Positions 11,870 to 52,440 of a stretch of 64,000 bases of DNA are shown piece by piece (within the stretch, counting starts at the first letter, position 1; the number at the start of each line of letters is the position of its first letter). The notes beneath the pieces were generated by a model. The model was not told the DNA's origin. It was given only the letters and a program-made list of their open reading frames with translations, and did no database searches. Position numbers and translations under genes: made by a program. This stretch comes from Chrysophaeum taylorii (lineage: Eukaryota; Sar; Pelagophyceae; Pelagomonadales; Pelagomonadaceae), in NCBI GenBank assembly GCA_029834535.1, contig JAQMWT010000366.1, forward strand, positions 78,501 to 142,500, in the 5' to 3' direction.

Positions 11870-11907
<38 letters not shown>

Positions 11908-19500: not shown

Positions 19501-19615
19501 CTAAAGCTTCACGTAAATGGGTGGAAGTAACGGTAGTTTCGTCAATGTATGAATACTGAGAGGTTTCTTCGGAAGCAGAGTAATAAACATGTGCATGGGG
19601 ATCAACAAGGGTGTT

Positions 19616-19779: not shown

Positions 19780-19809
19780 ATCAACAAGGGTGTTAGCTAA
19801 ACAAAGGGG

Positions 19810-22150
19810 AAGGAAGACATAATGAACTAACAAACGAAAGCTAACATAAGAGACATACGAAGAGTTACAGGAGGAAACAGAAGCGACAGAGGAAACAGAA
19901 TCGACATTGTGACAGGATGAAACAGAATCGACATTGCGTTGTTGACAAACGCCAGTATGAAAGTTTGTTGGTTGTTGTAATGCGCTTTGGTCGACTTTGC
20001 GCGGTCGGCTCCGTTTGGCGCGACTTTGTTTTGCACTTTCCTCAGGAGGTTTTGGGCTCTTTGGTTTTGTCGGCTCTGGTTTGCTCGACTTTGTTTTGCA
20101 CTTTCTGTTGTTTTCTCTCTCTTGCACTTTCTGTTGTTTTCTCTCTTTGGTGCGTCGGAGTTTATGAGCTCGTAGAATGGTCGGTTCACGTGATGGGGTG
20201 ATCAGTCCCAGTGAAACCGGCGCATTCTCATCAAACACAGGGGGCAAGGGGGCAACAGCGGAAGAACAGCGGAAGAACAGGTGACAATCGGGCAACAGCA
20301 GGAACAGGTGACAATGGGGCAACAGTAGACGAGAGCTGGGAAGCGTGATTCGAGTCAGAACAACGTTGAAGTTCCTTCGGTGGTTGACATTGCAGGAAAT
20401 CTGATAATCGAAACTGTCAGCAAAATCGAGGTCTGAAGAACAATAGCGACAAAAGTGCCTGGGATGACGTGCGTTAGACGATTGTGGCCACTGAGAATCG
20501 CAGCGGGGCAAAGATAGCGGAAACACAAGCTGGTACATATGATGGCGGTGTACCAGACGTCTGATGAGAACGTTGCCTTTGGGCAGTATGTTATATATGT
20601 TGTATGGTGACCAGGTTATGACGATGGTCGGAGGCGACTGAAGCAAAAACAGGCGTAAACAGGGTTGATGCGAACGTTGGGTGTTTGGTTATTGTGGCGC
20701 GAGCAAGTTGCCATGGGCACGACCGCGTCCTGTACGCGAAAATGGAAGACTTCGGACGCGCCAGCGGTGTTAGGAACGAACACGGGTAGACCAGGCTGCT
20801 GTATGCCAGCCTGCTGTGGCAGATAAGAAAGTGGCCCGTTTTCGCATTCGCAAGAACGAAGTTGCCATATGGGCCAACGTTGGAGGAGCAAGCGGCGAGC
20901 TTCGCGTCATACTCGAATAGACTGCGGTAGAAGTTGGCGACAGTGGCAAAACAGTTGTGGCACGTAAGAACGTTGCAGATAGCGTCGCAGTGGCACGTAA
21001 GAACATTGCAGATAGCGTCGCGGGCGCTGAACACGGAATTCACTGCGATAGCAAAACCGGATTTTAAAGGTCAGAAAAACGGCGAAAAGGCGATAGTGCG
21101 TGAAGGAGAACCACAACATTGTGTTGATACCGTAGACGAAGAAGCCGAATAACACACCAAAGAAGCGGCGGTCCAGGATCCCGAAGATGAGCGATCCAAC
21201 CACATAGGAAGCACGAAAACTGCGCACGCGAAAAATTGACAGGCACAGCTTAGTTGTGGCAGGTGAAATGCGCGATGGAACGTGATTCGCTGGTTTTACC
21301 AAAACCGACAAGCACAACGAGGAGTGGATCAACGAATAGCTGAAAATGCACCACGGGGAGTGGAGCAACGAATAGGCGAAATACAGAACGAGGAGGGGAG
21401 CAACGACGAGGTGAAAAGACAGAACGAGGAGAGGAGCAACGACGAGGGGAAAATACAGAGCGAGGGGCTGAGCAACGAATAGCAGAAAATACAGAACGAG
21501 GCGCCTGTGCAATGGGAGCTAAAAACAAAAACGAGGGGCTTCCGTGGGATGGGGTTGTTGATGTGCTTGCGTCAGAAAATCGGCGGTACACACGCTGACT
21601 TGGAATTATCTTGATTGGCAGAAAGGTGCAAAGATGATAAGATAGAGTATCGGGAAGTGTATTTGAGACGGTGGGTGTGGCCGTTTAAGGCGGTGAAGGG
21701 GGGGTGTAATAGGTGGAGGTATTAAGAAAAGCGGCGGAGAGGAACTAGAATCAGTCAAGGTTGGAGTAGGCATAGGAGCAGAAAAGGTAGTGTTACTGGT
21801 GGTTTTGGTGAGTTGGTGGGTGGGTGTTGTTGGGTGTTGTTGGGTGTTGTTGGAGTCATTGGGAATGTTACGCTGTTGAGAAGAACGGCGATGGTGGGTA
21901 GCGCGTTGTCGTGGAATAGCTTGGAACTTTGAAACTTGCGGCAGTCCCCCTTAAAGTGAGCCTTGCAGCCGCCAAAAGGACATCGGGTAGTGCGTCGGAA
22001 TCGAGTAGAGCCAGGTTGTTGGGAAAGGGGGGAGTCTAGGGTAGGTCAGTTGGAAGAGTCGGAAGTCGTGGCTGACGACGCGGCGGATAGCGCGGCGGAA
22101 GTGGTTGTGCATGCCATCGAAATTGATTGTTGTTGAACTTCTCAAGGGTA
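19810..22150 (-). pseudogene. copia copy 1 upstream pol/gag remains
   Basis: This is the part of the element upstream of RT on the minus strand. It is homologous throughout to 50090-52440 in copy 2, so it belongs to the element. Visible landmarks are a Lys/Ser/Thr/Pro-rich linker with repeated RKQQKVQ-type units near 20050-20170, and near 21990 a small Cys-rich motif, CPFGGCKAHFKGDC, that could be a nucleocapsid knuckle variant. I could not place a clean integrase HHCC or DDE motif, and no long intact frame exists. Confidence 0.55.
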
Positions 22151-28784: not shown

Positions 28785-29984
28785 ATGATGGCTGAGACGG
28801 AGTTCGCGTTCCGGAGGCAAGAGATGACAGCGACACTCCAGCGGGCCGAGCCTAAGCGCGAGAAGATGGAGCGAGTGGACGAGGTCGTCGAGCGCGGGCT
28901 CGACATCGTCACGACGCTCTTAGTTATTGGAACGGCGCTCCCCGTCGTTTTAGGGGGAATATGCGGCGTCACCAAGGACATTCTGGAGGACGTGCGGAAG
29001 TACAAAGGCAGAGCGGAGGACGTGGCACAGGCCGGCTCCCGTGTCGTTGATGTCCTCGAGTTTCTCCAGCTCCTCGCGCATCGTGTTCGTGTTCGCAACT
29101 TGCCCGCTATCGACAAGGTCCGCCGCGCGATGGAGGACCTCAAGTTGCTGCTCGACGACTTCAAGACCGCCGTTCAAGCATTCGGCAACCGCGGCTTCTT
29201 GAAACGAGCCTGGAAACTGCGCAAGCATGCGGGGACGCTCTCGCTCCTCGACGAAAAGATCCGCTGCTGGAAACTCGATATGCTGTGGAAGGTCTACGGC
29301 CTCGCGCGCGACGATCACGTCGAGGAGCTCTTGCTGCGAACTGTGCCGTACAAGCTCGAGGAGGCGCTCCGGAAGCACGTCGAACGCCACGACAACGATG
29401 AGAGCGCCCTTGGAGATGTTGCTAAGGAAGGTGGCGTCGACCCAGAGGAGACCAGGACGGGGCTTGAATCGCTGCACCGAGTAGGAGAGGACATCAACTC
29501 GCAGCTCAAGGAAATGAAGGAAATTATGGCCCAATTGAAGCGTGCCATTGAACGCAGCGACCTCCCTGCTGTCCAGCTTGCTGGCGAGAAGGCATCCGAC
29601 CTGATGGCCAGAACAGGCTCACTTTCTGTGTATGAAAGGGGCCTCGTCTCAAAGCTGCTCGCTGCTTGCTTCTCCGGCGACGCGAATAAGATCGAAAGCC
29701 TCTTGGAGAAAGAGAACGACATCATCCACGAGATGTCGTCTGACGTCGGCGGCGGCGCCGCCTGGGCGCTTTCGGCGCTTCACGTCTCAGCGATGCTCGG
29801 CAACATTGGCGTCATCAAGAGGCTGCATAGTAAGAACGGTGACTTCACCCGCCCGGACGCGCGCAAGCGAACACCCCTGCACCATGCTGCTGCCCACGGC
29901 CACGTCAAGGTCATCTCGTACCTCCTGACCCATTGTGGTGTCGATGTCAACGCCATGGCTGGCTCTGCGCCCGGACAGCCCTGA
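28785..29984 (+). CDS. N-terminal MLKL/HeLo-like helical domain with ankyrin repeats
   Basis: The 399-codon frame opens the composite locus. Residues 35-60 form a hydrophobic helix (IVTTLLVIGTALPVVLGG). Residues 60-185 have the heptad-like pattern of a four-helix bundle of the MLKL/HeLo/MCAfunc kind: DILEDVRKYKGRAEDVAQAG, VDVLEFLQLLAHRV, IDKVRRAMEDLKLLLDDF and LSLLDEKIRCWKLDML. A coiled region around residues 235-275 (EDINSQLKEMKEIMAQLKRAIE) links to ankyrin units (ALHVSAMLGNIGVIKRL, RTPLHHAAAHGHVKVISYLL) at residues 325-390. The frame ends abruptly inside the next ankyrin unit, which continues in the next frame, so the stop at 29982 is not the real C terminus. The domain assignment is by pattern only. 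Confidence 0.65.
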   Translation: MMAETEFAFRRQEMTATLQRAEPKREKMERVDEVVERGLDIVTTLLVIGTALPVVLGGICGVTKDILEDVRKYKGRAEDVAQAGSRVVDVLEFLQLLAHRVRVRNLPAIDKVRRAMEDLKLLLDDFKTAVQAFGNRGFLKRAWKLRKHAGTLSLLDEKIRCWKLDMLWKVYGLARDDHVEELLLRTVPYKLEEALRKHVERHDNDESALGDVAKEGGVDPEETRTGLESLHRVGEDINSQLKEMKEIMAQLKRAIERSDLPAVQLAGEKASDLMARTGSLSVYERGLVSKLLAACFSGDANKIESLLEKENDIIHEMSSDVGGGAAWALSALHVSAMLGNIGVIKRLHSKNGDFTRPDARKRTPLHHAAAHGHVKVISYLLTHCGVDVNAMAGSAPGQP

Positions 29985-31665
29985 TGCGCGCGAGCTACGC
30001 GAAGGGTTCCTCGAGGTCGTTATTTGCCTAGTTGAAGAAAAGGGGCACGCGGACGTGAACGTTGGGTACGACGCCGACTACGGCGATGAGACTGCCATCG
30101 ACTTGGGGCTCAGTGCCGCGGCCACACCGAGGTCGTGCGTGACTTACTTGAAGAAGCAGGGGGCGAAACCACTGTCAAAGCCGTTCTCGATGAATCCTAA
30201 AGGGCCAATAATAACGGAGACTTTCTCCCGACGCCGCATCGGTCGGACCGCAAGCACGCGCCCGCAACCCCCGAGTGAAGGAGAGCAATGCGACCAGAGA
30301 CCTCAAGACACCGGATTGTCAAATGTTCGCGAGACTTCGGATCGTCGCGAAGATCAACCCGTGATCGAGGGAAATTTGGTAGCTCTCGAAGCCTACACTC
30401 GGCCGGGCATGCGCGAACTGCTTTTTTCGGAGATAGGCAGCGACGACTTTGCATCATCCGACCTGCGCAGCGACAATGCCATCGGTACGGGTCTCCCCAC
30501 TACACATCGCCCCCGGTGTCTTGGCGTCGGCAACCTCTGCGCGGGGCACCTCGTTCGCTTGCCAACTACTGGTCGTCCCGTGTTTGAGGTTGTGTTCGAC
30601 TTCATTGGACAAGGGGGTTACGGGGAAGTCTACGTCGTTCGGTCGATGACCCGGGCGGCAACGTTGTTTGCGATGAAACGTGTTCGCTCCGACAAGCTCG
30701 GAGGGGCCTCGAGTAGCAAGAAAACCTCCGAGGAGATTCGGCTCTGTCGAGGAGAGGCCCTGCTCATGGCCCAGCTCGGCACGCACCCTCACGTCGTCTC
30801 GCTCAACTACGGCGTCGTGTCGAGTACCGCGGACTTTTTACTATTTACGACGCTCGTCGACGGGGCGCGCGACTTAGAGCGACTCGTCGTCTCGAGTGGC
30901 GACCTGTACGACGGGGACACGCGCGGCGTGCGTGAATCCATCTCTATGACACTCCGACACGTAGCCTCTGCGCTCGCGTTTTGTCGTGGGTGCGGCGTGC
31001 TTCATCAAGACGTCAAGCTCGAAAACATATACGTGGATACGGCGGGCCGCGCCTTTCTTGGAGACTTCGGCCTGGCAAGCCATGGCGATGGTGTCCACGG
31101 ACAGCTCCGTGCTCCTCTCGAGGGCTGCACGCGCGCCTACGCGTCTCCTGAAGTTATCGGGAAACTTGATGTTTCGTCGGGTCGATATCGTGATTTCGTC
31201 AAGACTACTTCGCCCGCCGAGACTGACATCTGGGCCTCCTTTGGTATCGTCGCCTTACTCTTGTACTGTGGCGACGGGGAGACGTTTCCCGCGAGCGACA
31301 TGAAGCGTCCTCTTGAGTCTATCGTCTTTCCACAACCACCGGATTCGAGCTGGACGAAGGAAGATCGACGTCGAGACTTGGTTGCGGAATTATTCGTTGT
31401 CCATCCATCCATCCATCCATCCGGGGACACGTTTCCCGCGAGCGACATGAAGCGTCCTCTTGAGTCTATCGTCTTTCCACAACCACCGGATTCGAGCTGG
31501 ACGAAGGAAGATCGACGTCGAGACTTGGTTGCGGAATTATTCGTTGTCCATCCATCCATCCATCCATCCGGGGACAATCAACGAGCCGGACACTCTCGAT
31601 GGTGCGTCGCTCTTCCTCTTGTCGCCGAACAGTCTCCACGATGCCGTGCCGTGGCTTCGGCATAA
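29935..31665 (+). CDS. Ankyrin end plus protein kinase domain
   Basis: The first part (from about 29975) completes the ankyrin unit (LEVVICLVEEKGHADVNVGYD). After a Ser/Arg-rich linker a protein kinase begins near 30600: glycine loop FIGQGGYGEVYVV, catalytic Lys in FAMKRV, catalytic loop GVLHQDVKLENIYV (HQD instead of HRD), FLGDFGLAS, the AYASPEVIG motif and DIWASFGIVALLLY. Asp, Asn and Lys are conserved, so activity is plausible. A 147-bp in-frame tandem duplication (31284-31577) doubles a 49-residue piece of the C lobe and includes CCAT repeats; the correct continuation (DTLDGASLFLL...) is in another frame from about 31560. The Met at 29935 is not a genuine start. Confidence 0.75.
   Translation: MVSMSTPWLALRPDSPDARELREGFLEVVICLVEEKGHADVNVGYDADYGDETAIDLGLSAAATPRSCVTYLKKQGAKPLSKPFSMNPKGPIITETFSRRRIGRTASTRPQPPSEGEQCDQRPQDTGLSNVRETSDRREDQPVIEGNLVALEAYTRPGMRELLFSEIGSDDFASSDLRSDNAIGTGLPTTHRPRCLGVGNLCAGHLVRLPTTGRPVFEVVFDFIGQGGYGEVYVVRSMTRAATLFAMKRVRSDKLGGASSSKKTSEEIRLCRGEALLMAQLGTHPHVVSLNYGVVSSTADFLLFTTLVDGARDLERLVVSSGDLYDGDTRGVRESISMTLRHVASALAFCRGCGVLHQDVKLENIYVDTAGRAFLGDFGLASHGDGVHGQLRAPLEGCTRAYASPEVIGKLDVSSGRYRDFVKTTSPAETDIWASFGIVALLLYCGDGETFPASDMKRPLESIVFPQPPDSSWTKEDRRRDLVAELFVVHPSIHPSGDTFPASDMKRPLESIVFPQPPDSSWTKEDRRRDLVAELFVVHPSIHPSGDNQRAGHSRWCVALPLVAEQSPRCRAVASA
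31284..31577 (+). repeat. 147-bp in-frame tandem duplication within the kinase region
   Basis: The block starting GTTTCCCGCGAGCGACATGA at 31284 is repeated from 31431 with no internal change. Each copy ends in (CCAT)4-5 and CCGGGGACA. The duplication adds 49 codons without shifting frame; the frame is lost at the second CCAT tract. Confidence 0.9.
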
Positions 31666-32301
31666 GCGAGATCGAGCACGACTGCGCAGAATGCTTTTAG
31701 CTCCACCTCTAGCCATGAACGCTCTTGTTCAGGCATATGCCTCGCTGCTGATGCGACGCAAAGACCAGCGTGCGGCGCAACCCTGCTAGAAGCAATGCAA
31801 ATTCGAGACGCGTCCGTGCTTAACACTGACGTCGACACGCGCGACGTTTCAGAGATGCTGCTCAACATTGGCCGAGCGGCGGTCGAGCTGAACGATGTCG
31901 GACTCGCGTGCACGGCGCTCGAGGCTGCGGCAGAGAAGGGCGGCGATGCTGCCGAGTGCTACTCGCTCCTCGCCGGCTCACACATTCATGCTGGCAACTT
32001 GGAACAGGCGGTGCTGGCGAGCGAGAAGGCAATTCGTTACGACCCCGTGCACGGTGGTGCGTTTTTTTTTCGCCAAGGCGGAAGCAGCGCATCAACGCGA
32101 CCTGAGTTCCGCGGACTCGCAGTTCATCGATGTCATGCGACAGGCGCGGCTATACGATGCGAAGCTCTTTGCTGCACCGCGCACCGAAAAGGGTGAAGTC
32201 ACCGACCTCGAGACTGCCCCAAGGATCGAGACTGCCCCGAGGACGATGCGGACTCGGCGCGCGATCCCATCACGAACAACCGAGTCTCGGTATCCGCGTG
32301 C
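31580..32301 (+). CDS. Kinase C-lobe end and TPR-like segment, in three frames
   Basis: The kinase end reads DTLDGASLFLLSPNSLHDAVPWLRHKR, ALVQAYASLLMRRKDQ in the frame ending at 31789. From 31795 another frame gives MQIRDASVLNTDVDTRDVSEMLLNIGRAAVELND and then a TPR-like helix pair, AAECYSLLAGSHIHAGNLEQAVLASEKAIRYDP. At the T run near 32060 it shifts again to FFAKAEAAHQRDLSSADSQFIDVMRQARLYDAKLF. A short direct repeat, ATCGAGACTGCCCC, lies at about 32222-32255. The chain of related helical pairs supports a single TPR domain linking kinase and NTPase. Confidence 0.5.
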
Positions 32302-33341
32302 GTGAGAGAACTGCCGCCAATCGTCAAGCATCGACGCGATGTCAAGACCGAGTATCGGGATGCGCCACCGTCAACGAAGGCTCATTCAAGCATCCGAGCA
32401 GCCTTTTCCGAGGTCGTAAACGACTTCGAAGGCGTTTACGAGGCGGCGATGCGCACTGGGCGCGTCGTGATAGACGGTGATGCTGGAAAGGGTTGGGTCC
32501 TGCGTGCTCTCGTTGTTGCGCTCTACGACGAGCAAGTTGACCACCACCACGAAAGAAGTGGTTGCGAATTGGGTGGTTCGAGCGCGTCGGAGTACGTCCT
32601 CCCCTTGACTATTTCCCATCAAACTTCGACGATCCCGACAGCGACTTGATCGGCAGCGCGATCGACAAAGTTCGGGACGACGACGGCGGCGACGCCCTGC
32701 GAGCAGCGCGGATCGACCGACGCCTTGTTCTTTGTCTGGACGGCCTCGACGAAGTTGCGCCGACGACTAGACCATCGATCGTCGAGAAGATCGTGGAGTG
32801 CGCCCAAAATTGTGCTCTCACCATAATCACCACGCGTCCGGCGGCTGAGAAGAACGTCGGCGATTTCGCGCCGCACGGTTTCGCTTTTCTCAGAATTTTC
32901 GCAGTCGATCGCAGACGCGTCGAGACCCTCGGAATTCCTCGCGGCATCATCGCGAGCCACGTCGAGACTCCTTTAGCCCTCCGGCTCGCGATGCTTGCGT
33001 TGTCTTCTACTGGAGAATTACAGCCACCGCCAGTTCTTCGCGATCGTTCCGATTTGTTCCGCGTCGCGGACGAGGGATTTATGACTCGCGCTGTGGTACC
33101 GACGCGACAGGACGGAGCGCTCGTGCTCGCGCGTAATGATCTGCGAGAGTGCGGGAGTTTGGAAGTGCGCGAGATCTTCGAGCGGCTTGCGCTCTTGGCG
33201 CACCAGGAAAGACGAACTTCGTTTAAGTGCGGCGACTTCGAAGCCCTAAAACCGTCCCGGTTGGCTGCGGCGGTCTGGAGCTTAGCGCGGTCTGGGTTGT
33301 TGCCTCCGCTTGCGCCGAGTCTGTTGCTTTCTTCCACCTGA
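32302..33341 (+). CDS. NACHT-type NTPase domain
   Basis: Two overlapping frames (32302-32649 and 32562-33341) together encode a NACHT-like STAND NTPase. The P-loop position reads GRVVIDGDAGKGWVLRAL, which lacks the GK(S/T) pair expected in GxxGxGK(S/T) and looks short by two codons. Walker B is intact in the second frame, RRLVLCLDGLDEVAP, followed by a sensor-like CALTIITTRPA. A helical stretch and SLEVREIFERLALLAHQE, typical of the winged-helix part, follow. The winged-helix end FFHLTFQAFLVARIL is encoded in the third frame at about 33325-33375. In intact proteins of this class ATP binding drives oligomerisation; the broken P-loop may abolish it. Confidence 0.7.
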
Positions 33342-36300
33342 CTTTCCAAGCATTCCTCGTCGCGCGCATCCTTGGGCTTGACAGCCTGCTTGTTGGCGAC
33401 TCGTTCGACCTCGGTGACCGGTGGTGCCAATCGCCCGCGCTCTTTGCGTTTCAACTCGCGGATCCAAGTGGACGCGAGCGACCGCTAACTGCCCTTGCTC
33501 GGAAGATTCCAAAATTGCTGGTGGGCGAGACGGTTGAAGTTTATTCTGCACTCAAACGGGGGTATGAGCCACACGCTGTCGTCTCCTTGGATGAGTTCGA
33601 CTCCGGTGGCAAAAAAATTGGTGTCCAAACACATTCGTGGTCCAAGAAAGAAGTCGTCTCCGCGGAACGTGTGCGGCGAGGTGTGGCGGGAGTTGCAGCG
33701 CTGTCACGGCACGCATCCTCAGAGGGCGAAACTGCGCTCGTGGCAGGAATTCTGGATCGTGGTGCCGACCTTATCACCCCGGTTGATTCCGTGACGAAAG
33801 ATAGCGCTCTGCACGCAGCCGCGCGGTCTGGCAGGTCCGAGTGTGCTCGACTCTTGTTTCGCGCCGGCGCCTGGTTGTTCGCTCGGAGGAATAAGCTAAT
33901 GTCTACGCCAATCGATCTCGGTCTCTCTCGTGTGGTCGGAATTGACCAAAGAGCTGAGATGGCTCGGGTCTTATGGCCACCGCAATGCGATAAGGACCTC
34001 GCCTCTCATCCCATCGTTCCAGAAGTGCAGGAGTGGCTCGACACCGACGAGGCATCAGACAAGATTGCTGAAGACTGGGATGACGACGTGCGTTTGTACG
34101 CATTCGCTCAAGCGTGTCGTCGCAGGCAAACGCGAGTCGCCGCAACACTAGCGGCATTTATCGACACGAATCGTCGTTTCCCTGGCGGAGATAGTGTACC
34201 GCTTCATTTCGCGGTCGTTAATTCGTGCACTCATGCTTTAAGCGTGCTGCTCGAACGCGGAGCACAATTGCACGTCTGCATGTGTGAATCAGCGTTGGAA
34301 CTTGCTTCGAGATTGAATCGCACCGATGCTCTCTCGGCGATGCTTGAAACAAAGAAGTTCGACGAGACCATTCTCAGATTGCATCCTGCTGCACAGTTTG
34401 GGTTTATTGCATGCGTCCAGCTCCTGATCGAGAAGGGTGCCGAGGTCGACAAAGCGTCGACCCACGATGGCGGGACGCCACTTGGATTAGCGTCTCAAAA
34501 CGGCCACGTCGACTGCGTTCAGATCTTGATCGAGAAGGGTGCCGAGGTCGACAAGGCGACGACCAAAAATGGCTCGACGCCACTTCTCGTGGCGTCTCAG
34601 AACGGCCACGTCGAGCGCGTCCGGGTCTTGATCGAGAAGGGTGCCGATGTCCAGAATGCGACGACCGACACTGGATTGACGCCACTATATTCGGCGTCTC
34701 AGAATGGCCACGTCGCGTGCGTCCAGCTATTGATCGAGAAGGGTGCCGAGGTCGACAAAGCGCGGACCGACAGTGGCGTGACGCCTCTTCTCGCGGCGTC
34801 TAACAACAGCCACGTCGCGTGTGTCCAACTTTTGATCGAGAAGGGTGCCGACGTCGACAAAGCGTCAACAGACGATGACACGACGCCGCTTCTCTTGGCG
34901 TCTCAGAACGGCGACTTCGAGTGCGTCCAGCTCATTATCGAGAAGGGTGCCGACGTCGACAAAGCGTCGACCGACAATGGCTTGACGCCACTTCTCGTGG
35001 TGTCTCACAACGGCCACGTCGAGTGCGTCCAGCTCTTGGTCGAGAAGGGTGCCGACGTCGACAAAGTGTCGACCGACAATGGCTCGACGCCGCTTTTATT
35101 GGCGTCTCAGAACGGCCATGTCGAGTGCGTCCAGCTCTTGATCGAGAAGGGTGCCGACATCGACAAAGCGTCGACCGACAATCGCTCGACGCCGCTTTTA
35201 TTGGCGTCTCAGAACTGCCACGTCGAGTGCGTCCAGCTCTTGATCGAGAAGGGTGCCGACATCGACAAAGCGCGGACCGACAATGGCTTGACGCCACTTC
35301 TCATGGCGTCTCAGAACGGCCACGTCGACTGCGTCCAGCTCTTGATCGAGATGGGTGCCGACGTCGACAAAGCGTCGACCACCAATGGCTCGACGCCACT
35401 CATCGTGGCGTCTCAGAACGGCCACGTCGAGTGTGTCCAGCTCTTGATCGAAAAGGGAGCCGAGGTCGACAAAGCATTGACCGACAATGGGTTGACACCA
35501 CTTCTCATGGCGTCTCAGAACGGCCACGTCGAGTGCGTCCAGCTCTTGATCGAGAAGGGTGCTAACGTCGACAAAGCGTCGACCAACAATGGCTCGACGC
35601 CACTCATCGTGGCGTCTCAGAACGGCCACGTCGAGTGTGTCCAGCTCTTGATCGAAAAGGGAGCCGAGGTCGACAAAGCATTGACCGACAATGGCTTGAC
35701 GCCACTTCTCATGGCGTCTCACAACGGCCACGTCGACTGCGTCCAGCTCTTGATCGAGAAGGGTGCCGAGGTCGACAAAGCGTCGACCAACAATGGCTCG
35801 ACACCGCTTTTAGTGGCGTCTCAGAACGGCCACGTCGACTGCGTCCAACTCTTGATCGAGAAGGGTGCCGACGTCGACAAAGCGTCGGCCGACGATGACT
35901 CAACGCCGCTTCTCTTGGGGTCTTACAACGGCCATGTCGACTGCGTCCAGCTCTTGATCGAGAAGGGTGCCGAGGTCGACAAAGCGTCGACCACTAATGG
36001 CTTGACGCCACTCATCGTGGCGTCTCAGAACGGTCACGTCGACTGCGTCCAGCTCTTGATCGAGGAGGGTGCCGATGTCGACAATGCGTCGACCGACGAT
36101 GGCTCGACGCCACTTCTCGTGGCGTCTCAGAACGGCCACGTCGAGTGCGTCCAGCTATTGATCGAGAAGGGTGCCGAGGTCGACAAAGCGCGGACTGACA
36201 ACGGCTTGACGCCACTTCTCATGGCGTCTCACAACGGCCACGTCGAGTGCGTCCGGATCTTGATCGAGAAGGGTGCCGACGTCGACAAAGCGTCGACCGA

Positions 36301-38302
36301 CAATGGCTCGACGCCACTTCTTTTGGCGTCTCAGAATGGCCACGTCGAGTGCGTCCAGCTCTTGATCGAGAAGGGTGCCGAGGTCGACAAAGCGCGGACC
36401 GACAGTGGCTCGGCGCCACTTTTTTTGGCGTCTCAGAACGGCCACGTCGAGTGCGTCCAGCTCTTGATCGAGAAGGGTGCCGACATCGACAAAGCGCGGA
36501 CCGACAATGGCTTGACGCCACTTCTCACGGCGTCTCAGAACGGCCACGTCGAGTGCGTCCAGCTCTTGATCGAGAAGGGTGCCGACGTCGACAAAGCGTC
36601 GACCAACAATGGCTCGACGCCACTCATCGTGGCGTCTCAGAACGGCCACGTCGAGTGTGTCCAGCTCTTGATCGAAAAGGGAGCCGAGGTCGACAAAGCA
36701 TTGACCGACAATGGCTTGACGCCACTTCTCATGGCGTCTCACAACGGCCACGTCGACTGCGTCCAGCTCTTGATCGAGAAGGGTGCCGAGGTCGACAAAG
36801 CGTCGACCAACAATGGCTCGACACCGCTTTTAGTGGCGTCTCAGAACGGCCACGTCGACTGCGTCCAACTCTTGATCGAGAAGGGTGCCGACGTCGACAA
36901 AGCGTCGACCGACAGTGGCTCGGCGCCACTTTTTTTGGCGTCTCAGAACGGCCAGGTCGAGTGCGTCCAGCTCTTGATCGAAAAGGGAGCCGAGGTCGAC
37001 AAAGCATTGACCGACAATGGCTTGACGCCATTTCTCATGGCGTCTTACAACGGCCACGTCAAGTGCGTCCAGCTCTTGATCGAGAAGGGTGCCGAGGTCG
37101 ACAAATCGTCGACCGACAATGGCTCGACGCCACTTATCGTGGCGTCTCAAAAAGGCAACGTTAAGTGCGTCCAGCTCTTGATCGAGAAGGGTGCCGACAT
37201 CGACAAAGCGCGGACCGACAATGGCTTGACGCCACTTCTCATGGCGTCTCACAACGGCCACGTCGACTGCGTCCAGCTCTTGATCAAGAAGGGTGCCGAC
37301 GTCGACAAAGCGTCGACCACCAACGGCTCGACGCCACTCATCGTGGCGTCTCAGAACGGCCACGTCGAGTGTGTCCAGCTCTTGATCGAAAAGGGAGCCG
37401 AGGTCGACAAAGCATTGACCGACAATGGGTTGACACCACTTCTCATGGCGTCTCAGAACGGCCACGTCGAGTGCGTCCAGCTCTTGATCGAGAAGGGTGC
37501 TAACGTCGACAAAGCGTCGACCAACAATGGCTCGACGCCACTCATCGTGGCGTCTCAGAACGGCCACGTCGAGTGTGTCCAGCTCTTGATCGAAAAGGGA
37601 GCCGAGGTCGACAAAGCATTGACCGACAATGGCTTGACGCCACTTCTCATGGCGTCTCACAACGGCCACGTCGACTGCGTCCAGCTCTTGATCGAGAAGG
37701 GTGCCGAGGTCGACAAAGCGTCGACCAACAATGGCTCGACACCGCTTTTAGTGGCGTCTCAGAACGGCCACGTCGACTGCGTCCAACTCTTGATCGAGAA
37801 GGGTGCCGACGTCGACAAAGCGTCGACCGACAGTGGCTCGGCGCCACTTTTTTTGGCGTCTCAGAACGGCCACGTCGAGTGCGTCCAGCTCTTGATCGAA
37901 AAGGGAGCCGAGGTCGACAAAGCATTGACCGACAATGGCTTGACGCCACTCATCGTGGCGTCTCAGAACGGTCACGTCGACTGCGTCCAGCTCTTGATCG
38001 AGGAGGGTGCCGATGTCGACAAAGCGTCGACCAACGACGGCTCGACGCCACTTCTCGTGGCGTCTCAGAACGGCCACGTCGACTGCGTCCAACTCTTGAT
38101 CGAGAAGGGTGCCGACGTCGACAAAGCGTCGACCGACAGTGGCTCGGCGCCACTTTTTTTGGCGTCTCAGAACGGCCAGGTCGAGTGCGTCCAGCTCTTG
38201 ATCGAAAAGGGAGCCGAGGTCGACAAAGCATTGACCGACAATGGCTTGACGCCACTTATCATGGCGTCTTACAACGGCCACGTCAAGTGCCCCAGCTCTT
38301 GA
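33227..38302 (+). CDS. NACHT C-terminal part and first 38 homogenised ankyrin units
   Basis: This 1,691-codon frame starts within the NACHT region, contains FFHLTFQAFLVARILG, then a linker region with degenerate ankyrins (SALHAAARSGRSECARLLFRAGA, PLHFAVVNSCTHALSVLLERGA), and from 34412 the regular 34-residue units with consensus near STPLLxASQNGHVECVQLLIEKGADVDKASTDNG. Ankyrin solenoids bind proteins. The frame ends at 38302 because one base is missing in the Val codon of a CVQLL motif (TGCGTCCAG becomes TGCCCCAG); the array continues unaltered in the next frame. Confidence 0.8.
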   Translation: MRRLRSPKTVPVGCGGLELSAVWVVASACAESVAFFHLTFQAFLVARILGLDSLLVGDSFDLGDRWCQSPALFAFQLADPSGRERPLTALARKIPKLLVGETVEVYSALKRGYEPHAVVSLDEFDSGGKKIGVQTHSWSKKEVVSAERVRRGVAGVAALSRHASSEGETALVAGILDRGADLITPVDSVTKDSALHAAARSGRSECARLLFRAGAWLFARRNKLMSTPIDLGLSRVVGIDQRAEMARVLWPPQCDKDLASHPIVPEVQEWLDTDEASDKIAEDWDDDVRLYAFAQACRRRQTRVAATLAAFIDTNRRFPGGDSVPLHFAVVNSCTHALSVLLERGAQLHVCMCESALELASRLNRTDALSAMLETKKFDETILRLHPAAQFGFIACVQLLIEKGAEVDKASTHDGGTPLGLASQNGHVDCVQILIEKGAEVDKATTKNGSTPLLVASQNGHVERVRVLIEKGADVQNATTDTGLTPLYSASQNGHVACVQLLIEKGAEVDKARTDSGVTPLLAASNNSHVACVQLLIEKGADVDKASTDDDTTPLLLASQNGDFECVQLIIEKGADVDKASTDNGLTPLLVVSHNGHVECVQLLVEKGADVDKVSTDNGSTPLLLASQNGHVECVQLLIEKGADIDKASTDNRSTPLLLASQNCHVECVQLLIEKGADIDKARTDNGLTPLLMASQNGHVDCVQLLIEMGADVDKASTTNGSTPLIVASQNGHVECVQLLIEKGAEVDKALTDNGLTPLLMASQNGHVECVQLLIEKGANVDKASTNNGSTPLIVASQNGHVECVQLLIEKGAEVDKALTDNGLTPLLMASHNGHVDCVQLLIEKGAEVDKASTNNGSTPLLVASQNGHVDCVQLLIEKGADVDKASADDDSTPLLLGSYNGHVDCVQLLIEKGAEVDKASTTNGLTPLIVASQNGHVDCVQLLIEEGADVDNASTDDGSTPLLVASQNGHVECVQLLIEKGAEVDKARTDNGLTPLLMASHNGHVECVRILIEKGADVDKASTDNGSTPLLLASQNGHVECVQLLIEKGAEVDKARTDSGSAPLFLASQNGHVECVQLLIEKGADIDKARTDNGLTPLLTASQNGHVECVQLLIEKGADVDKASTNNGSTPLIVASQNGHVECVQLLIEKGAEVDKALTDNGLTPLLMASHNGHVDCVQLLIEKGAEVDKASTNNGSTPLLVASQNGHVDCVQLLIEKGADVDKASTDSGSAPLFLASQNGQVECVQLLIEKGAEVDKALTDNGLTPFLMASYNGHVKCVQLLIEKGAEVDKSSTDNGSTPLIVASQKGNVKCVQLLIEKGADIDKARTDNGLTPLLMASHNGHVDCVQLLIKKGADVDKASTTNGSTPLIVASQNGHVECVQLLIEKGAEVDKALTDNGLTPLLMASQNGHVECVQLLIEKGANVDKASTNNGSTPLIVASQNGHVECVQLLIEKGAEVDKALTDNGLTPLLMASHNGHVDCVQLLIEKGAEVDKASTNNGSTPLLVASQNGHVDCVQLLIEKGADVDKASTDSGSAPLFLASQNGHVECVQLLIEKGAEVDKALTDNGLTPLIVASQNGHVDCVQLLIEEGADVDKASTNDGSTPLLVASQNGHVDCVQLLIEKGADVDKASTDSGSAPLFLASQNGQVECVQLLIEKGAEVDKALTDNGLTPLIMASYNGHVKCPSS

Positions 38303-41300
38303 TCGAGAAGGGTGCTAACGTCGACGAAGCGTCGACCAACAATGGCTCGACGCCACTCATCGTGGCGTCTCAGAACGGCCACGTCGAGTGTGTCCAGCTC
38401 TTGATCGAAAAGGGAGCCGAGGTCGACAAAGCATTGACCGACAATGGCTTGACGCCACTTCTCATGGCGTCTCACAACGGCCACGTCGACTGCGTCCAGC
38501 TCTTGATCGAGAAGGGTGCCGAGGTCGACAAAGCGTCGACCAACAATGGCTCGACACCGCTTTTAGTGGCGTCTCAGAACGGCCACGTCGACTGCGTCCA
38601 ACTCTTGATCGAGAAGGGTGCCGACGTCGACAAAGCGTCGACCGACGATGACTCAACGCCGCTTCTCTTGGGGTCTTACAACGGCCATGTCGACTGCGTC
38701 CAGCTCTTGATCGAGAAGGGTGCCGAGGTCGACAAAGCGTCGACCACTAATGGCTTGACGCCACTCATCGTGGCGTCTCAGAACGGTCACGTCGACTGCG
38801 TCCAGCTCTTGATCGAGGAGGGTGCCGATGTCGACAAAGCGTCGACCGACGACGGCTCGACGCCACTTCTCGTGGCGTCTCAGAACGGCCACGTCGAGTG
38901 CGTCCAGCTATTGATCGAGAAGGGTGCCGAGGTCGACAAAGCGCGGACCGACAATGGCTTGACGCCACTTCTCATGGCGTCTCACAACGGCCACGTCGAG
39001 TGCGTCCGGATCTTGATCGAGAAGGGTGCCGACGTCGACAAAGCGTCGACCGACAATGGCTCGACGCCACTTCTTTTGGCGTCCCAGAACGGCCACGTCG
39101 AGTGCGTCCAGCTCTTGATCGAGAAGGGTGCCGACATCGACAAAGCGCGGACCGACAATGGCTTTACGTCACTTCTCATGGCGTCTCAGAACGCCCACGT
39201 CGACTGCGTCCAGCTCTTGATCGAGAAGGGTGCTAACGTCGACAAAGCGTCGACCAACAATGGCTCGACGCCACTCATCGTGGCGTCTCAGAACGGCCAC
39301 GTCGAGTGTGTCCAGCTCTTGATCGAAAAGGGAGCCGAGGTCGACAAAGCATTGACCGACAATGGCTTGACGCCACTTCTCATGGCGTCTCACAACGGCC
39401 ACGTCGACTTCGTCCAGCTCTTGATCGAGAAGGGTGCCGAGGTCGACAAAGCGTCGACCAACAATGGCTCGACACCGCTTTTAGTGACGTCTCACAACGG
39501 CCATGTCGACTGCGTCCATCTCTTGATCGAGAAGGGTGCCGACATCGACAAAGCGCGGACAGACAATGGCTCGACGCCACTCATCGTGGCGTCTCAGAAC
39601 GGCCACGTCGAGTGTGTCCAGCTCTTGATCGAAAAGGGAGCCGAGGTCGACAAAGCGCGGGCCGACAATGGCTTGACGCCACTTCTCATGGCGTCTCAGA
39701 ACGGCCACGTTGACTGCGTCCAGCTCTTGATCGAGAAGGGTGCCGACTTCGACAAAGCGTCGACCACCAATGGCTCGACGCCACTTATCGTGGCGTCTCA
39801 GAACGGCCACGTCGAGTGTGTCCAGCTCTTGATCGAAAAGGGAGCCGAGGTCGACGAAGCATTGACCGACAATGGCTTGACGCCACTTATCGTGTCGTCT
39901 CAGAACGGCCACGTCGACTGCGTCCAGCTCTTCATCGAGAAGGGTGCCGACGTCGACAAAGCGCGGACCGACATTGGCTTGACGCCACTTCTCATGGCGT
40001 CTCACAATGGCCACGTCGACTGCGTCCAGCTCTTGATCGAGAAGGGTGCCCAGGTTGACAAAGCGTCGACCGACACTGGCCTGACGCCACTTCTCGTGGC
40101 TTCTCAGAACGGTCACGTCGAGTGCGTCCAGCTCTTTATCGAGAAGGGTGCCGAGGTCGACAAAGCGTCGACCGACAATGGCTCATAGCCGCTTTTATTG
40201 GCGTCTCAGAACGGCCATGTCGAGTGTGTCCAGCTCTTGATCGAGAAGGGAGCCGACGTCGACAAAGCGCTGACCGACAATGGCGCCACGCCGCTTTTAA
40301 TGGCGTCTCAGAACGGCCACGTCGACTGCGTCCAGCTTTTGATCGAGAAGGTTGCCGACGTCGACGAAGCGTCGACCGACAATGGCTCGACGCCGCTTTT
40401 ATTGGCGTCTCAGAACGGCCATGTCGAGTGTGTCCAGCTCTTGATCGAGAAGGGTGCCGACGTCGACAAAGCGTCGACCGACAATGACTCGACGCCGCTT
40501 CTCTTCGCGTCTCAGAACGGCCAAGTCGAGTGTGTGCAGCTCTTGATCGAGAAGGGTGCCGACGTCGACAAAGCGTCGACCGACGCTGGCTGGACGCCAC
40601 TTCTCGTGGCGTCCCAGAACGGTCACTTCGAGTGCGTCCAGCTCTTTATCGAGAAGGGTGCCGACGTCGACAAAGCGTCGACCGACAATGGCGCGACGCC
40701 GCTTCTCTTGGCGTCTCAGAACGGCCAAGTCGAGTGCGTCCAGCTCTTGATCGAGAAGGGTGCCGAGGTCGACAAAGCGACGACGACTAATGGCTCGACG
40801 CCACTCATCGTGGCGACTCAGAACGGCCACGTCGACTGCGTCCAGCTCTTTATGGAGAAGGGTGCCGACGTCGACAAAGCGCTGACCGACAATGGCGCCA
40901 CGCCACTTATCGTGGCGTCTCACAACGGCAACGTCGACTGCGTCCAGCTCTTGATCGAGAAGGGTGCCGACGTCGACAAAGCGTCGACCGACAATGGCGC
41001 GACGCCACTTCTCGCGGCGTCTCACAACGGCCACGTCGACTGCGTCCAACTCTTGATCGAGAAGGGTGCCGACGTCGACAAAGCGTCGACCGACAATGGC
41101 TCGACGCCACTTCTCGCGGCGTCTCACAACGGCCACGTCGACTGCGTCCAGCTCTTGATCGAGAAGGGTGCCGACGTCGACAAAGCGTCGACCGACAATG
41201 ACTCGACGCCGCTTCTCTTCGCGTCTCAGAACGGCCAAGTCGAGTGTGTGCAGCTCTTGATCGAGAAGGGTGCCGAGGTCGACAAAGCGTCGACCGACGC

Positions 41301-41930
41301 TGGCTTGACGCCACTTCTCGCGGCGTCTCACAACGGCCACGTCGACTGCGTCCAACTCTTGATCGAGAAGGGTGCCGACGTCGACAAAGCGTCGACCGAC
41401 AATGGCTCGACGCCACTTCTCGCGGCGTCTCACAACGGCCACGTCGACTGCGTCCAGCTCTTGATCGAGAAGGGTGCCGACGTCGACAAAGCGTCGACCG
41501 ACAATGACTCGACGCCGCTTCTCTTCGCGTCTCAGAACGGCCAAGTCGAGTGTGTGCAGCTCTTGATCGAGAAGGGTGCCGAGGTCGACAAAGCGTCGAC
41601 CGACGCTGGCTTGACGCCACTTCTCGCGGCGTCTCACAACGGCCACGTCGACTGCGTCCAACTCTTGATCGAGAAGGGTGCCGACGTCGACAAAGCGTCG
41701 ACCGACAATGGCGCGACGCCGCTTCTCTTGGCGTCTCACAACGGCCACGTCGACTGCGTCCAACTCTTGATCGAGAAGGGTGCCGAGGTCGACAAAGCGT
41801 CGACCGACAATGGCGCGACGCCGCTTCTCTTGGCGTCTCAGAACGGCCACGTCGACTGCGTCCAACTCTTGATCGAGAAGGGTGCCGACGTCAAGGCAAA
41901 GACTAGCGATAATCTCACGCCCCTTATTGT
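34412..41930 (+). repeat. 74 tandem 102-bp ankyrin units
   Basis: The TGCGTCCAG landmark of the first unit is at 34412 and of the last at 41857. The distance, 7445 bp, plus the single deleted base near 38292, equals exactly 73 x 102, so there are 74 units with no other indel. Unit length is 34 residues, one longer than the canonical 33-residue ankyrin repeat. Units are very similar at DNA level, including silent sites. Confidence 0.93.
38291..40188 (+). CDS. Ankyrin array, second segment, ending at a nonsense codon
   Basis: After the one-base deletion the same protein continues as QLLIEKGANVDEASTNNGSTPL and runs for about 18-19 units. It stops at TAG 40186-40188, where GGCTCGACGCCG of neighbouring units is GGCTCATAGCCG. 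The repeat continues in the same frame directly after the stop, so this is a point-mutation nonsense codon rather than a natural end. A longer frame overlapping upstream sequence is a shadow of the array. Confidence 0.7.
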
Positions 41931-42012
41931 TGCGAGAACGCCGGAAGTCCGAAATATTCTGTTGGAGGCAGAAGCGAAGTTGCCCGTCGGCGGCTGCTGC
42001 GCTCTATGCTGA
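40189..42012 (+). CDS. Ankyrin array, last segment and C terminus
   Basis: The frame continues from the nonsense codon through about 17 further units and leaves the array with GADVKAKTSDNLTPLIVARTPEVRNILLEAEAKL, a diverged capping unit, then GGCCALC and a TGA. The capping unit and the different composition after 41890 mark the true C terminus of the ancestral protein. The first Met in this segment is at 40198. Confidence 0.75.
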   Translation, partial: PLLLASQNGHVECVQLLIEKGADVDKALTDNGATPLLMASQNGHVDCVQLLIEKVADVDEASTDNGSTPLLLASQNGHVECVQLLIEKGADVDKASTDNDSTPLLFASQNGQVECVQLLIEKGADVDKASTDAGWTPLLVASQNGHFECVQLFIEKGADVDKASTDNGATPLLLASQNGQVECVQLLIEKGAEVDKATTTNGSTPLIVATQNGHVDCVQLFMEKGADVDKALTDNGATPLIVASHNGNVDCVQLLIEKGADVDKASTDNGATPLLAASHNGHVDCVQLLIEKGADVDKASTDNGSTPLLAASHNGHVDCVQLLIEKGADVDKASTDNDSTPLLFASQNGQVECVQLLIEKGAEVDKASTDAGLTPLLAASHNGHVDCVQLLIEKGADVDKASTDNGSTPLLAASHNGHVDCVQLLIEKGADVDKASTDNDSTPLLFASQNGQVECVQLLIEKGAEVDKASTDAGLTPLLAASHNGHVDCVQLLIEKGADVDKASTDNGATPLLLASHNGHVDCVQLLIEKGAEVDKASTDNGATPLLLASQNGHVDCVQLLIEKGADVKAKTSDNLTPLIVARTPEVRNILLEAEAKLPVGGCCALC

Positions 42013-48067: not shown

Positions 48068-48165
48068 TGTTACGAATGGAATGAGGCGTTAGACTAGCGA
48101 TATAAGAGAAAGACGTATGGATACTGGATACGTGGTGCAGGGGGAAGTGTCATAGCTTCCTCACA
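48068..48165 (-). repeat. 3' LTR of copia copy 2
   Basis: It begins TGTTACGAATGGAATGAGGC and ends TAGCTTCCTCACA on the plus strand. Two tandem copies of a roughly 50-bp unit (GGTGCTGGAAAAGAAAGAAA ... GGGGTAAGTGAG) follow it inside the element, as in copy 1. Confidence 0.9.
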
Positions 48166-48364
48166 CAGGTGCTGGAAAAGAAAGAAAAGGAAAAAGGGGT
48201 AAGTGAGGTCCTCACACAGGTGCTGGAAAAAGAAAGAAAAGGAAAAAGGGGTAAGTGAGATCCTCACAGAGGAGAAGCTAGAAGGAAGACGTCAGGAAAC
48301 CCACCCACATCCTTCATGCTCCCCACACACACCCCCCCCTCTTACCAGTCGACATTTAAAGACG

Positions 48365-49990
48365 TCAGGAAAGGCATTGTGGCAGAAAGAGACAACAGAG
48401 ATCAGGGCGAAGATCACGAAGTGAGGTAACGAGCACGAAGCCGGAGGAAGGAAGGAGCTTCCGTACGGCGGGTGAAAATATCGCTAAGGGTGTCAAGACG
48501 AGTAATGTGTTGGAGATTAATGATGTGGTTGCGATGATATTCGGCGGTGCTGTAAAAGCAAATGTCAAGATGGCGGGTGCGCCGTGTGAGACATTGGAGA
48601 CGAACTTGGGTGACGGTGGTGCTATTATCAACATTATACATTGGGACCGTGTGACGAGGGAGATCAAAGTCATCAAAAAGTTTGAGAAGCCAAGAGAGCT
48701 CAGCAGTAGCAGCGTAAAGAGCGAGCAACTCAGCTTCAAAAGAAGAGCGAGCAAGTAAGTAATGCGAGCGGGAGCAGTAGGCGATCACAGAGCCAGCAAG
48801 GAGAAAACAAAAACCAGTTGTAGAGTGGCGGTCATCAGGGTCGTCGGCCCAGCTGGAGTCGGAATAACCACAGAGATGAAGGGTAGAATCGCGACCAAAA
48901 GAATAAGGGCAAGATCCTGATTACCGTTGAGATAACGCAGAGTGTGGGATAAAGCGTGCCAGTGGGGTTTATTTACCAGGATTGTGGGAAAAAAACGCGC
49001 ACACTGATTGACGGACCAAGTGATATCAGGGCGAGTCATGATGGAGATGAAGAGGACACAGCCAACAATACGACGAAAAGGGATGCGTGCCATGAAAATG
49101 TGATCTGGAGAACCAGGAGTAGGACAATCAGCCGCAGAAAGATGAAGACCTTTGGGAGCGGGAGTGAGTTCGGGTTTACTGTTGATGAAGCGATGTTCGG
49201 TAAGGATTTCACGGATAGCATGGGATTGGTGAAGAGTGAGGGTTCTCCGAGAGCGATCACGCGTAATGCGAAGACCAACGTAAGAGGTGAGATCAAGCTC
49301 ATTGACGTCAGTGAAGGTTCGGAAACGGAGGAAAAAGGCTTGGTAATGGCCAATGCAATGACGAGGGTGCGCCACAAGAAGATCATCAACGACCAGAACG
49401 AGACGTAGAAGGACGGTAGAATTGAGCACGAGCTTGTAATGGCAAGTGTCACCAGATCCGCGGACGAAGCCACAGTCATTGACGAGAAAGCGTGCCAAAT
49501 AAAGCCACCAATTACGACAAGCTTGTTTGCAACCATACCAAGAGCGACGGAGCGTGTAAATGATTTTGGAACCATCGGTGGGTTGGCGAGGAGCATAGCC
49601 TTCGGGTGGCCAGACATATAGATGTCTTCGTCAATGGGAGCTTGAATAAAAGCGGAGTTGACATCCAACTTATGCAAATCCCAGTCATGAACAGCAACGC
49701 CAGACAGGGGCTTGTATGAAAGCAGAGATGACATCTACAGGACGGCACGTGTCGTGGTAAGCAATGCCGTGAACCTGCGTGTAACAGCGGACAACGAGGC
49801 GAGCCTTGTACGATTTGAAGCGGCCAGAGTCATACTTCTTGCGGAGTTGAGGGTACAAATGTTGCCAGAAACATCATCATCATCGAAGGAAGGCGAACAA
49901 CATCCCAGCAACCAAGCTGACCAAGAGAGCTGTATTCTTTAGCGATGGCTTGCAACCAGCCAGGACGCTCAGGATTGGTCGGAGCAAAAG
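48365..49990 (-). pseudogene. copia copy 2 reverse transcriptase and RNase H remains
   Basis: The best frame (49498-48785) holds FLVNDCGFVRGSGDTCHYKL, VLVVDDLLVAHP, DLTSYVGLRITRDRSRRTLTLHQSHAIREIL and RRIVGCVLFISIMTRPDITWSVNQCARF; the upstream RT part (HKLDVNSAFIQAPIDEDIYM) and the downstream RNase H part (SFEAELLALYAATAELSWL, RRTRHLDICFYS) lie in neighbouring frames. This copy preserves the RT better than copy 1. Confidence 0.87.
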
Positions 49991-50089
49991 CTTCACGTAA
50001 ATGGAAGTAATAGTGGTTTCGTCAAGGTAATACTGAGAGATTTCTTCAGAAGCAGAGTAATAAACGTGTGCATGGGGATCAACAAGGGT

Positions 50090-52440
50090 GTTAGCTAAAC
50101 AAAGGGGAAGGAAGACATAATGAACTAACAAACGAAAGCTAACAGAAGAGACATACAAAGAGTTACAGGAGGAAACAGAAGCGACAGAGGAAACAGAATC
50201 AACATCGTGACAGGATGAAACAGAATCGACATTGCGTTGTTGACAAACGCCAGTATGAAAGTTTGTTGGTTGTTGTAATGCGCTTTGGTCGACTTTGCGC
50301 GGTCGGCTCCGTTTGGCGCGACTTTGTTTTGCACTTTCTGTTGTTTTCTCTCTTTGGTGCTCTTTTGCACTTTCTGTTGTTTACTCTCTTTTGTACTTTC
50401 TGTTGTTTTCTCTCGAGCTCGTAGAATGGTCGGTTCACGTGATGGGGTGATCAGTCCCAGTGAAACCGGCGCATTCTCATCAAACAAGGGGCAAGGGGGC
50501 AACACAAGGGGGCAACAGCGGAAGAACAGGTGACAATCGGGCAACAGCAGGAACAGGTGACAATGGGGCAACAATAGACGAGAGCTTGGAAGCGTGATTC
50601 GAGAAAGTCAGAACAACGTTGAAGTTCCTTCGGTGGTTGACATTACAGGAAATCGGGTAAGTGAAACTGTCAGCAAAATCGAGGTCTGAAGAACAATAGC
50701 GACAAAAGTGCCTGGGATGACGTGCGTTAGACGATTGTTGTCACTGAGGATCGCAGCGGGGCAAAGATAGCGGAAACACAGGCTGGTACATATGATGGCG
50801 GTGTACCAGACGTCTGATGAGAACGTGGCCTTTGGGCAGATATGTTGCATGGTGCGTGGTGACCAGGTTACGTTACATGGTGCATGTTGACCAGGTTATG
50901 ACGATGGTCGGAGTCGACAGAAGCAAAAACAGGCGTAAACAGGTTTGATGCGAACGTGGGTGTTTGGTTGTTGTGGTGCGAGCAAGTTGCCATGGGCACG
51001 ACCGCGTCCTGTACGCGAAAATGGAAGACTTCGAACGCGCCAGCGGTGTAAGGGACGAACACAGGTAGACCAGGCTGCTGTATGCCAGCCTGCTGTGACA
51101 GATAAGAAAGTGGCCCGTTTTCGCATTCGCCAGAACGAAGTTGCCATATGGGCCAACGTTGGAGGAGCAAGCGGCGAGCTTCGTTCGTCATACTCGAATA
51201 GACTGCGGTAGAAGTTGGCGACAGTGGCAAAACAGTTGTGGCACGTAAGAACGTTGCAGTGCAGATAGCGTCGCGGGTGCTGAGCACGGAATTCACGTCG
51301 ATAGCAAAACCGAATTTTAAAGGTCAGAAAAGCGGCGAAAAAGTGCGTGAAGGAGAACCACAAATCACACAGCAAAGAAGCGTCTGTCCAGGATCCCGAA
51401 GATGAGCGATCCAACCACATAGGAAGCACGAAAACTGCGCACGCGAAAAATTGACAGGCACAGCTTAGTTGTGGCAGGTGAAATGCGCGATGGAACGTAA
51501 TTTGCTGGTTTTACCAAAACCGACAAGCACAACGAGGAGTGGATCAACGAATAGCTGAAAATGCACCACGGGGAGTGGAGCAACGAATAGGCGAAATACA
51601 GAACGAGGAGAGGAGCAACGACGAGGGGAAAATACAGAACGAGGGGCTGAGCAACGAATAGCAGAAAATACAGAACGAGGCGCCTGTGCAATGGGAGCTA
51701 AAAACAAAAACGAGGGGCTTCCGTGGGATGGGGTTGTTGATGTGCTTGCGTCAGAAAATCGGCGGTACACACGCTGACTTGGAATTATCTTGATTGGCAG
51801 AAAGGTGCAAAGATGATAAGATAGAGTATCGGGAAGTGTATGTGAGACGGTGGGTGTGGCCGTTTAAGGCGGTGAAGGGGGGGTGTAATAGGTGGAGGTA
51901 TTAAGAAGAAAAGCGGCGGAGTGGAACTAGAATCAGTCAAGGTTGGAGTAGGCATAGGAGCAGAAAAGGTAGTGTTAGTGGTGGTGGGTTTGGGTTGGTG
52001 TTGTTGGGTGTTGTTGGAGTCTTTCAACCATCAACGAGTCCGTCCTCGTCCCTCGCCTCTGCCCCAACTGCGTGATTTTCCTCTGTGATTCCGTACCGGC
52101 TCCTGCCGGTCCGGCCTGGCTCCCATGCTCGGGAGAGGTCTGAAGTTAGTTAGTTAGTTAGTTGGAGTCTTTGGAAGTGTTGCGCTGTTGAGAAGAACGG
52201 CGATGGTGGGTAGGGCGTTGTCGTGGAATAGCTAGGAACTTTGAAACTTGCGGCAGTCCCTCTTAAAGTGATGATCCTTGCAACAGCCGCCAAAAGGACA
52301 TCGGGTAGTGCGTCGGAATCGAGGAGAGCCAGGGTGTTGGGAAAGGGGAGAGTCTAGGGTATGTCAGTTGGAAGAGTCTGAAGTCGTGGCTGACGACGCG
52401 GCGGATAGCGCGGCGGAAGTGCTTGTGCATGCCATCGAAC
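50090..52440 (-). pseudogene. copia copy 2 upstream pol remains
   Basis: This block is homologous to 19800-22120 in copy 1, with the same Lys/Gln-rich linker and small indels, plus the nested LINE fragment. Shared indel-free stretches are long, but no frame is intact. Integrase motifs could not be placed with confidence. Confidence 0.55.
52025..52163 (+). mobile_element. 5'-truncated LINE fragment nested in copia copy 2
   Basis: The 139-bp block ends with GGCTCCCATGCTCGGGAGAG, GTCTGAAG and (TTAG)n. GGAGTCTTT occurs at 52016-52024 and again at 52164-52172 (12 bp if the shared GTT is counted), while copy 1 has the uninterrupted site (TTGGAGTCATTGG near 21852). It contains CCCCAACTGCGTGATTTTCC, matching the LINE coding end and 3' UTR at 22161-22260. 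Confidence 0.88.

Follow-up and report, generated by a model that had tools for sequence, protein, structure and literature searches.

The window considered here is a stretch of 64,000 nucleotides from the genome of Chrysophaeum taylorii, a pelagophyte and as such a stramenopile alga, and corresponds to C366:78,501-142,500 of an assembly of 70.8 Mb in 697 contigs. The genome paper (PMC10366177), which used Illumina, Nanopore, and PacBio sequencing, gives 71 Mbp and 702 contigs. The alga-like character proposed in an initial annotation of the window is borne out by 84 matches to the chlorophyll-binding family in this genome. Between positions 28,785 and 42,012, the forward strand codes first for a helical N terminus related to MLKL and for short ankyrins, then for a Ser/Thr kinase and tetratricopeptide repeats (TPR), and finally for an NTPase of the NACHT type with 74 ankyrin units behind it. 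The motifs named in the annotation and their order, all on the forward strand, were recovered in the open frames, by motif comparison, and in Pfam searches. Their union in one polypeptide was not, as the coding sequence is interrupted by at least eight frame changes, with all three forward frames being used, and by an in-frame TAG (40,186-40,188) inside an ankyrin unit. The stretch is a broken copy, probably a pseudogene of recent date, and has probably lost its function as one protein. The architecture that had been claimed for it is nevertheless that of a genuine family, since three paralogues in the same genome (C27, C73, and C309) are unbroken from the bundle into the array.

The N-terminal open frame (frame 0; 28,785-29,954) shares 56-61% identity with the N termini of paralogues C309, C534, and C529. 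It begins with the MLKL-related helical bundle (residues ~22-171; ~28,848-29,297), which is followed by a linker and a short ankyrin block (29,658-29,954; Pfam Ank_2, 49 bits). The first frame change, from frame 0 to 1, lies at 29,955-30,000. The kinase domain (30,592-31,290; Pkinase 76.7 bits, cut-off 31.7) extends from the N-lobe to part of the C-lobe with the motifs GQGGYGEVY, AMKRVR, HQDVKLEN, and GDFGLA; it is broken in the C-lobe by a frame change between 31,290 and 31,583, where a 147-bp tandem duplication (31,275-31,576; 2.1 copies, 99% match) is found. A TPR pair (31,861-32,049) scores just under the cut-off for TPR_8 (25.6 versus 25.7 bits) and reaches 24.6 bits for TPR_16 (cut-off 32.7). 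The P-loop region, identified by motif comparison across copies, is at 32,440-32,496, the NACHT Walker B motif LVLCLDGLDE at 32,724-32,753, and, in the third frame according to the open frames and the motif table, the FFHLTFQAFLVA motif at 33,329-33,364. The ankyrin array (34,355-41,901) is succeeded by a C-terminal cap and a cysteine-bearing tail ending in VGGCCALC and a stop codon (41,902-42,012). Cysteines near the C-terminal end also occur in C27, C538, C324, C73, C534, and C437, which would be compatible with a lipid-anchoring tail.

In the genome, the N-terminal piece of the window copy gave at least 50 matches (among the best 104 of 167 candidates scored), and those of the NACHT piece number 17 rows and belong to 14 loci, one of them the window. 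C27 (2,699 amino acids) and C73 (2,339 amino acids) each have a single open frame in which the bundle is followed by ankyrins, the kinase-type domain, NACHT, and the array, the bundle being assigned by identity to the window N terminus (57% and 52%, resp.) and not by Pfam. C309 has the same composition in an open frame of 3,406 amino acids, together with a weak TPR match and an extra N-terminal region; its tail is in another frame. Kinase-type domain and NACHT share one frame in these three copies, so that the refuting condition set in the annotation, namely homologues in which the two always belong to separate genes, fails. Of the bundle, C538 (3,144 amino acids) retains the later part only; C324 (3,017 amino acids) has LRR-like repeats, below cut-off, where others have the bundle, and was matched by the N-terminal query only from residue 223; C437 (2,444 amino acids) has ankyrins and a kinase-type domain as well as the array and a region related to NACHT; and in C74 (1,838 amino acids) the array occurs together with TPR and a weak match to NACHT. 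One in-frame stop splits C529 and a frame change splits C534; C207, C551, and C358 are in several pieces. N-terminal matches exist at other loci too, such as C366:176.8 kb.

All three catalytic landmarks of a kinase, i.e., the VAIK Lys, the HxD Asp, and the DFG Asp, are present in the window copy. Both HQD and DFG are also kept in C324, C529, C534, C207, and C551. The DFG Asp is lost in C309, C27, and C73, which read GFG, and in C538, which reads NFG; in the unbroken copy C437, neither HxD nor DFG was found by motif pattern. Among the bundle-bearing copies, DFG is therefore kept in none of the four unbroken ones (counting C538 with its partial bundle and C309 with its tail out of frame) and in all five broken ones in which both motifs are readable (C358 was left out). 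As the copies are related and few, this pattern is a lead and not a test. C324, the unbroken copy with DFG, is the one with LRR-like repeats in the place of the bundle. The initial proposal that one polypeptide would sense, phosphorylate, and kill is consequently doubtful, although the architecture behind it stands.

NACHT domains are characterised by a DGxDE-type Walker B motif with a downstream FxHxTFQ. LVLCLDGLDE and FFHLTFQ are both found in the window copy, each in its own frame, as well as in most paralogues; C27 reads DGLNE and FFNLTFQ, and C437 DGLDR. A canonical Walker A motif (GxxxxGK[ST]) is absent from the window copy, which has the short form GDAGKGW. The corresponding sequence is GSGKGW in nine of eleven other copies, with Gly in place of the Ser/Thr usual after the P-loop lysine, CSGKGW in C529, and GKTW in C437. 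The Pfam cut-off for NACHT is exceeded in C27, C324, and C534 and, if neighbours in frame are counted, in C309, C538, and C73. Additional NACHT matches above cut-off lie in C396, C391, C165, C569, C454, and C435, in open frames of 1,266-3,022 amino acids at loci unmatched by the window NACHT piece.

The count of 74 ankyrin units in the annotation was confirmed as 73 whole units of 34 residues plus one split by a frame change (38,231-38,331), with a period of 102 bp; tandem-repeat analysis agrees with this spacing. In the last piece of the array, Pfam Ank families score as high as 538 bits. The 73 whole units have a mean pairwise DNA identity of 87%. Multi-unit blocks, 8, 6, and 4 units long, reappear in the array with 98.9-99.8% identity, as unequal exchange would leave them. 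Identity within the window copy (0.87) exceeds that between copies (0.55-0.79); this is not so for C309 or C324. A gene-conversion donor among 12 other loci compared found no support, the best unit identity being 0.892 and the longest exact match 46 bp. At the seven positions that are randomised in DARPins, entropy is higher than at the other positions in all ten copies (10/10). Because the near-identical 102-bp units keep other frames open as well, an uninterrupted frame within the array counts for little on its own; an antisense open frame of 534 residues lies within it. Elsewhere in the window, a separate small ankyrin-repeat open frame (10,787-11,962) adjoins a DnaJ-domain frame, and two distant tracts (17,703-21,501 and 48,158-51,680) with strong GC skew and similar 36/71-bp and 51/52-bp tandem units are possibly copies of one repeat element.

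Evidence for the nature of the bundle comes from the family. Ten of 17 bundle rows match the Pfam profile MLKL_N at E <= 0.1 (best 1.1e-6), which makes it by far the most frequent profile (DUF7711, three rows; RPW8, two; SesA, one). C309 attains 29.5 bits in a six-frame search, above the cut-off of 27, and 25.2 bits in another search. A search of solved structures with the bundle profile returned no match at E <= 1, and Foldseek with a second bundle model nothing significant; the first model, built from five rows, was too poor to use. MLKL_N scores of 63-67 bits, far above cut-off, were obtained for open frames of 407-1,379 amino acids at C565, C25, C521, C309:112.6 kb, and C8, which are unmatched by the window N-terminal piece.

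The same bundle is encountered outside the NLR-like genes. In P0021 (C615) and P0026, putative receptor kinases, it is placed between a hydrophobic segment, judged by eye to be transmembrane, and a kinase with HRD and DFG, and this placement recurs in relatives outside this genome that are 70% and 74% identical (P0023 from lgn, P0022 from jgi). The assignment follows from similarity to the window bundle (C615: 36%, E 1e-23); MLKL_N at E <= 0.001 was not found in three translations of this group. At C324:98.8 kb, a bundle (MLKL_N 20.5 bits) is located beside CHAT (24.2 bits, cut-off 24) and Roc (28.8 bits, cut-off 27). The corresponding region (C324:97,287-106,000) comprises the CHAT-bundle-Roc open frame, a stop, and a further frame that matches COR-A and PNP_UDP_1 weakly, at most about 20 kb from the kinase-NACHT-ankyrin copy on C324. 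A protein search with residues 1-1,500 of C27 yielded 20 listed matches, of which three are paralogues from C. taylorii; the other 17 cover 6-13% of the query. None of those listed from this word-based search has the full domain order in another species; P0019 and P0020 contain kinase, STAND-type NTPase, and WD40 repeats as precomputed domains.

The breaks in the window copy lie at about 29.95-30.00, 31.29-31.58, 31.73, 32.07-32.11, 32.22, 32.60, 33.31, and 38.23-38.33 kb, the first seven placed by ungapped matches to C534 and C324 and the eighth by array unit spacing. That they are introns or gene boundaries of several ordinary genes is very improbable. Several frames of 150-1,691 residues and the extra DNA at 31.29-31.58 kb would fit this explanation; however, the latter includes the 147-bp duplication and is the only place able to hide an intron, spacing to paralogues or between units leaves no room at the other seven changes, and the paralogues are single open frames. 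Introns were accordingly rejected as the cause. It is rather unlikely, though of more weight, that the gene is intact in the alga and that base or collapse errors in an assembly from Nanopore, PacBio, and Illumina reads (read types as stated in PMC10366177) broke a repeat-rich locus. A T run at one break would suit such errors, as would five further broken family copies and an omega that is not raised in the window copy (medians of 0.22-0.39 versus 0.13-0.42 in other copies). Against them, seven of the eight frame changes fall in unique sequence upstream of the array, and six paralogue frames are open over 6.9-9.4 kb in the parts compared, albeit chosen for being so. Furthermore, of the 20 indels found in the window copy alone in the kinase-to-array segment, 7 have lengths that are not multiples of three, and only one of these measures 1 bp (the others 2, 2, 4, 4, 10, and 20), unlike homopolymer error. 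The respective proportions are 2/11 in C309, 0/9 in C27, 1/1 in C324, 1/1 in C534, and 0/6 in C529; the divergent C73 has 11/32 despite its open frame, so that gap placement is noisy. C538, for which the start anchor was not found, and C207, C551, C358, C437, and C74 did not enter this comparison. An old pseudogene is not supported, since omega in the window copy resembles that of the other copies; inactivation, if real, is recent. Unique amino-acid changes are more numerous in the window copy in eight of nine relative-rate comparisons. Departures at otherwise invariant sites give no clear sign of decay (8/74 and 4/29 in two segments; two of the seven segments were without usable columns) and are similar or higher in C538 (10/76; 3/28) and C437 (21/87; 13/38).

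Taken as a broken copy of a giant NLR-like family, the stretch would descend from a protein in which the array senses, NACHT assembles, and an MLKL-like bundle damages a membrane; about an even chance is given to this reading. Binding of a ligand by the ankyrin array would relieve autoinhibition, NACHT subunits would oligomerise, and the clustered bundles would attack the membrane as in MLKL/HeLo proteins. The kinase-type domain, devoid of the DFG Asp in unbroken bundle copies, would be an MLKL-like pseudokinase hinge rather than an enzyme. The domain order of the three unbroken paralogues, the window breaks, and the recurring array blocks are established by sequence, whereas membrane killing by the bundle is something we infer by analogy. 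Several observations weigh against the reading. MLKL_N reaches 16.3 and 15 bits on the window copy (cut-off 27) and misses several family members, NACHT reaches 12.1 bits on the window piece (cut-off 26.7), and breaks are common in the family, about half of the examined copies being broken. The MLKL/HeLo-like bundle of the annotation holds for the family, at the level of sequence evidence, and is weak for the window copy itself. The bundle might instead be an oligomerisation or docking adaptor common to receptor-kinase-like, NACHT, and Roc proteins and no membrane executioner, which is quite possible though short of an even prospect. Its position before a complete kinase in P0021, P0022, P0023, and P0026, its proximity to CHAT and Roc, and the extra helix that precedes the MLKL-like first helix would suit an adaptor. 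The predominance of MLKL_N among the profile matches argues against an adaptor, as does the description, in PMC9815663, of MLKL, RPW8, and HeLo bundles as pore-forming death domains.

MLKL of animals and plants is built of a helical bundle and brace-like helices, followed by a kinase-type domain. The algal family resembles it in the kinase-type domain following the bundle and in the catalytic degeneracy of that domain in the four unbroken bundle-bearing copies; it differs in the ankyrins between bundle and kinase, in the extra helix, and in the fused TPR, NACHT, and array. P0019 and P0020, from the sources lgn and jgi, likewise unite a kinase, an AAA_16/nSTAND-type NTPase, and a repeat sensor, but with WD40 repeats instead of ankyrins, with only 11-13% of the query covered (E 5e-4 and 8e-4), and with no bundle seen. 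The closest known kind are fungal HeLo-like/MLKL-like-NACHT-ankyrin NLRs, which according to PMC9815663 and PMC4986451 carry NACHT and ankyrins besides an N terminus of the HeLo/MLKL type, with repeats that are nearly identical within a protein. Shared with these are NACHT, a bundle of the MLKL superfamily at the N terminus, ankyrins of 33-34 residues at the C terminus, high internal repeat identity in part of them, and N termini swapped between relatives (LRR-like repeats in C324, the extra region in C309). The algal lineage, the kinase-type domain (with TPR) inserted between bundle and NACHT, and a P-loop that mostly ends in GKG set the family apart. Kinase-bearing fungal NLRs are described as rare (PMC12258605): a 2014 survey counts kinase among 12 N-terminal classes, and in Sordariales 12 such NLRs are reported, nine with a C-terminal kinase (PMC4986451, PMC9815663, PMC12258605). 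Brown-algal ROCO candidate immune receptors (PMC11378527) are also of stramenopile origin, and the Roc-bearing frame described above shares the bundle; the window family, unlike them, is NACHT- and ankyrin-based. In the titles and abstract openings listed, neither a description of the full domain combination nor NLR proteins in the Pelagophyceae literature were found, and the word "kinase" occurs 0 times in the main text of the C. taylorii genome paper (PMC10366177).

Tentatively, and with less than even probability, a stramenopile alga may have fused the whole necroptosis chain, from the sensing ankyrins through the assembling NACHT and the kinase-type switch to an executioner of MLKL type, in one polypeptide. 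The same bundle in receptor kinases and in the CHAT-Roc protein would then be one killing module for several receptor classes, and copies combining bundle, active kinase, and NACHT would be being lost, with pseudokinase or bundle-less copies surviving. With these findings, a photosynthetic stramenopile is seen to have bundles related to MLKL and NACHT-ankyrin proteins whose arrays are homogenised, and to join them with a kinase-type domain in a single chain. Should the bundle kill, the path from sensing to execution, which is split among several proteins elsewhere, would be testable in a single protein, and the receptor-kinase-like bundle proteins would open a way into the study of cell-death immunity in algae that form blooms.

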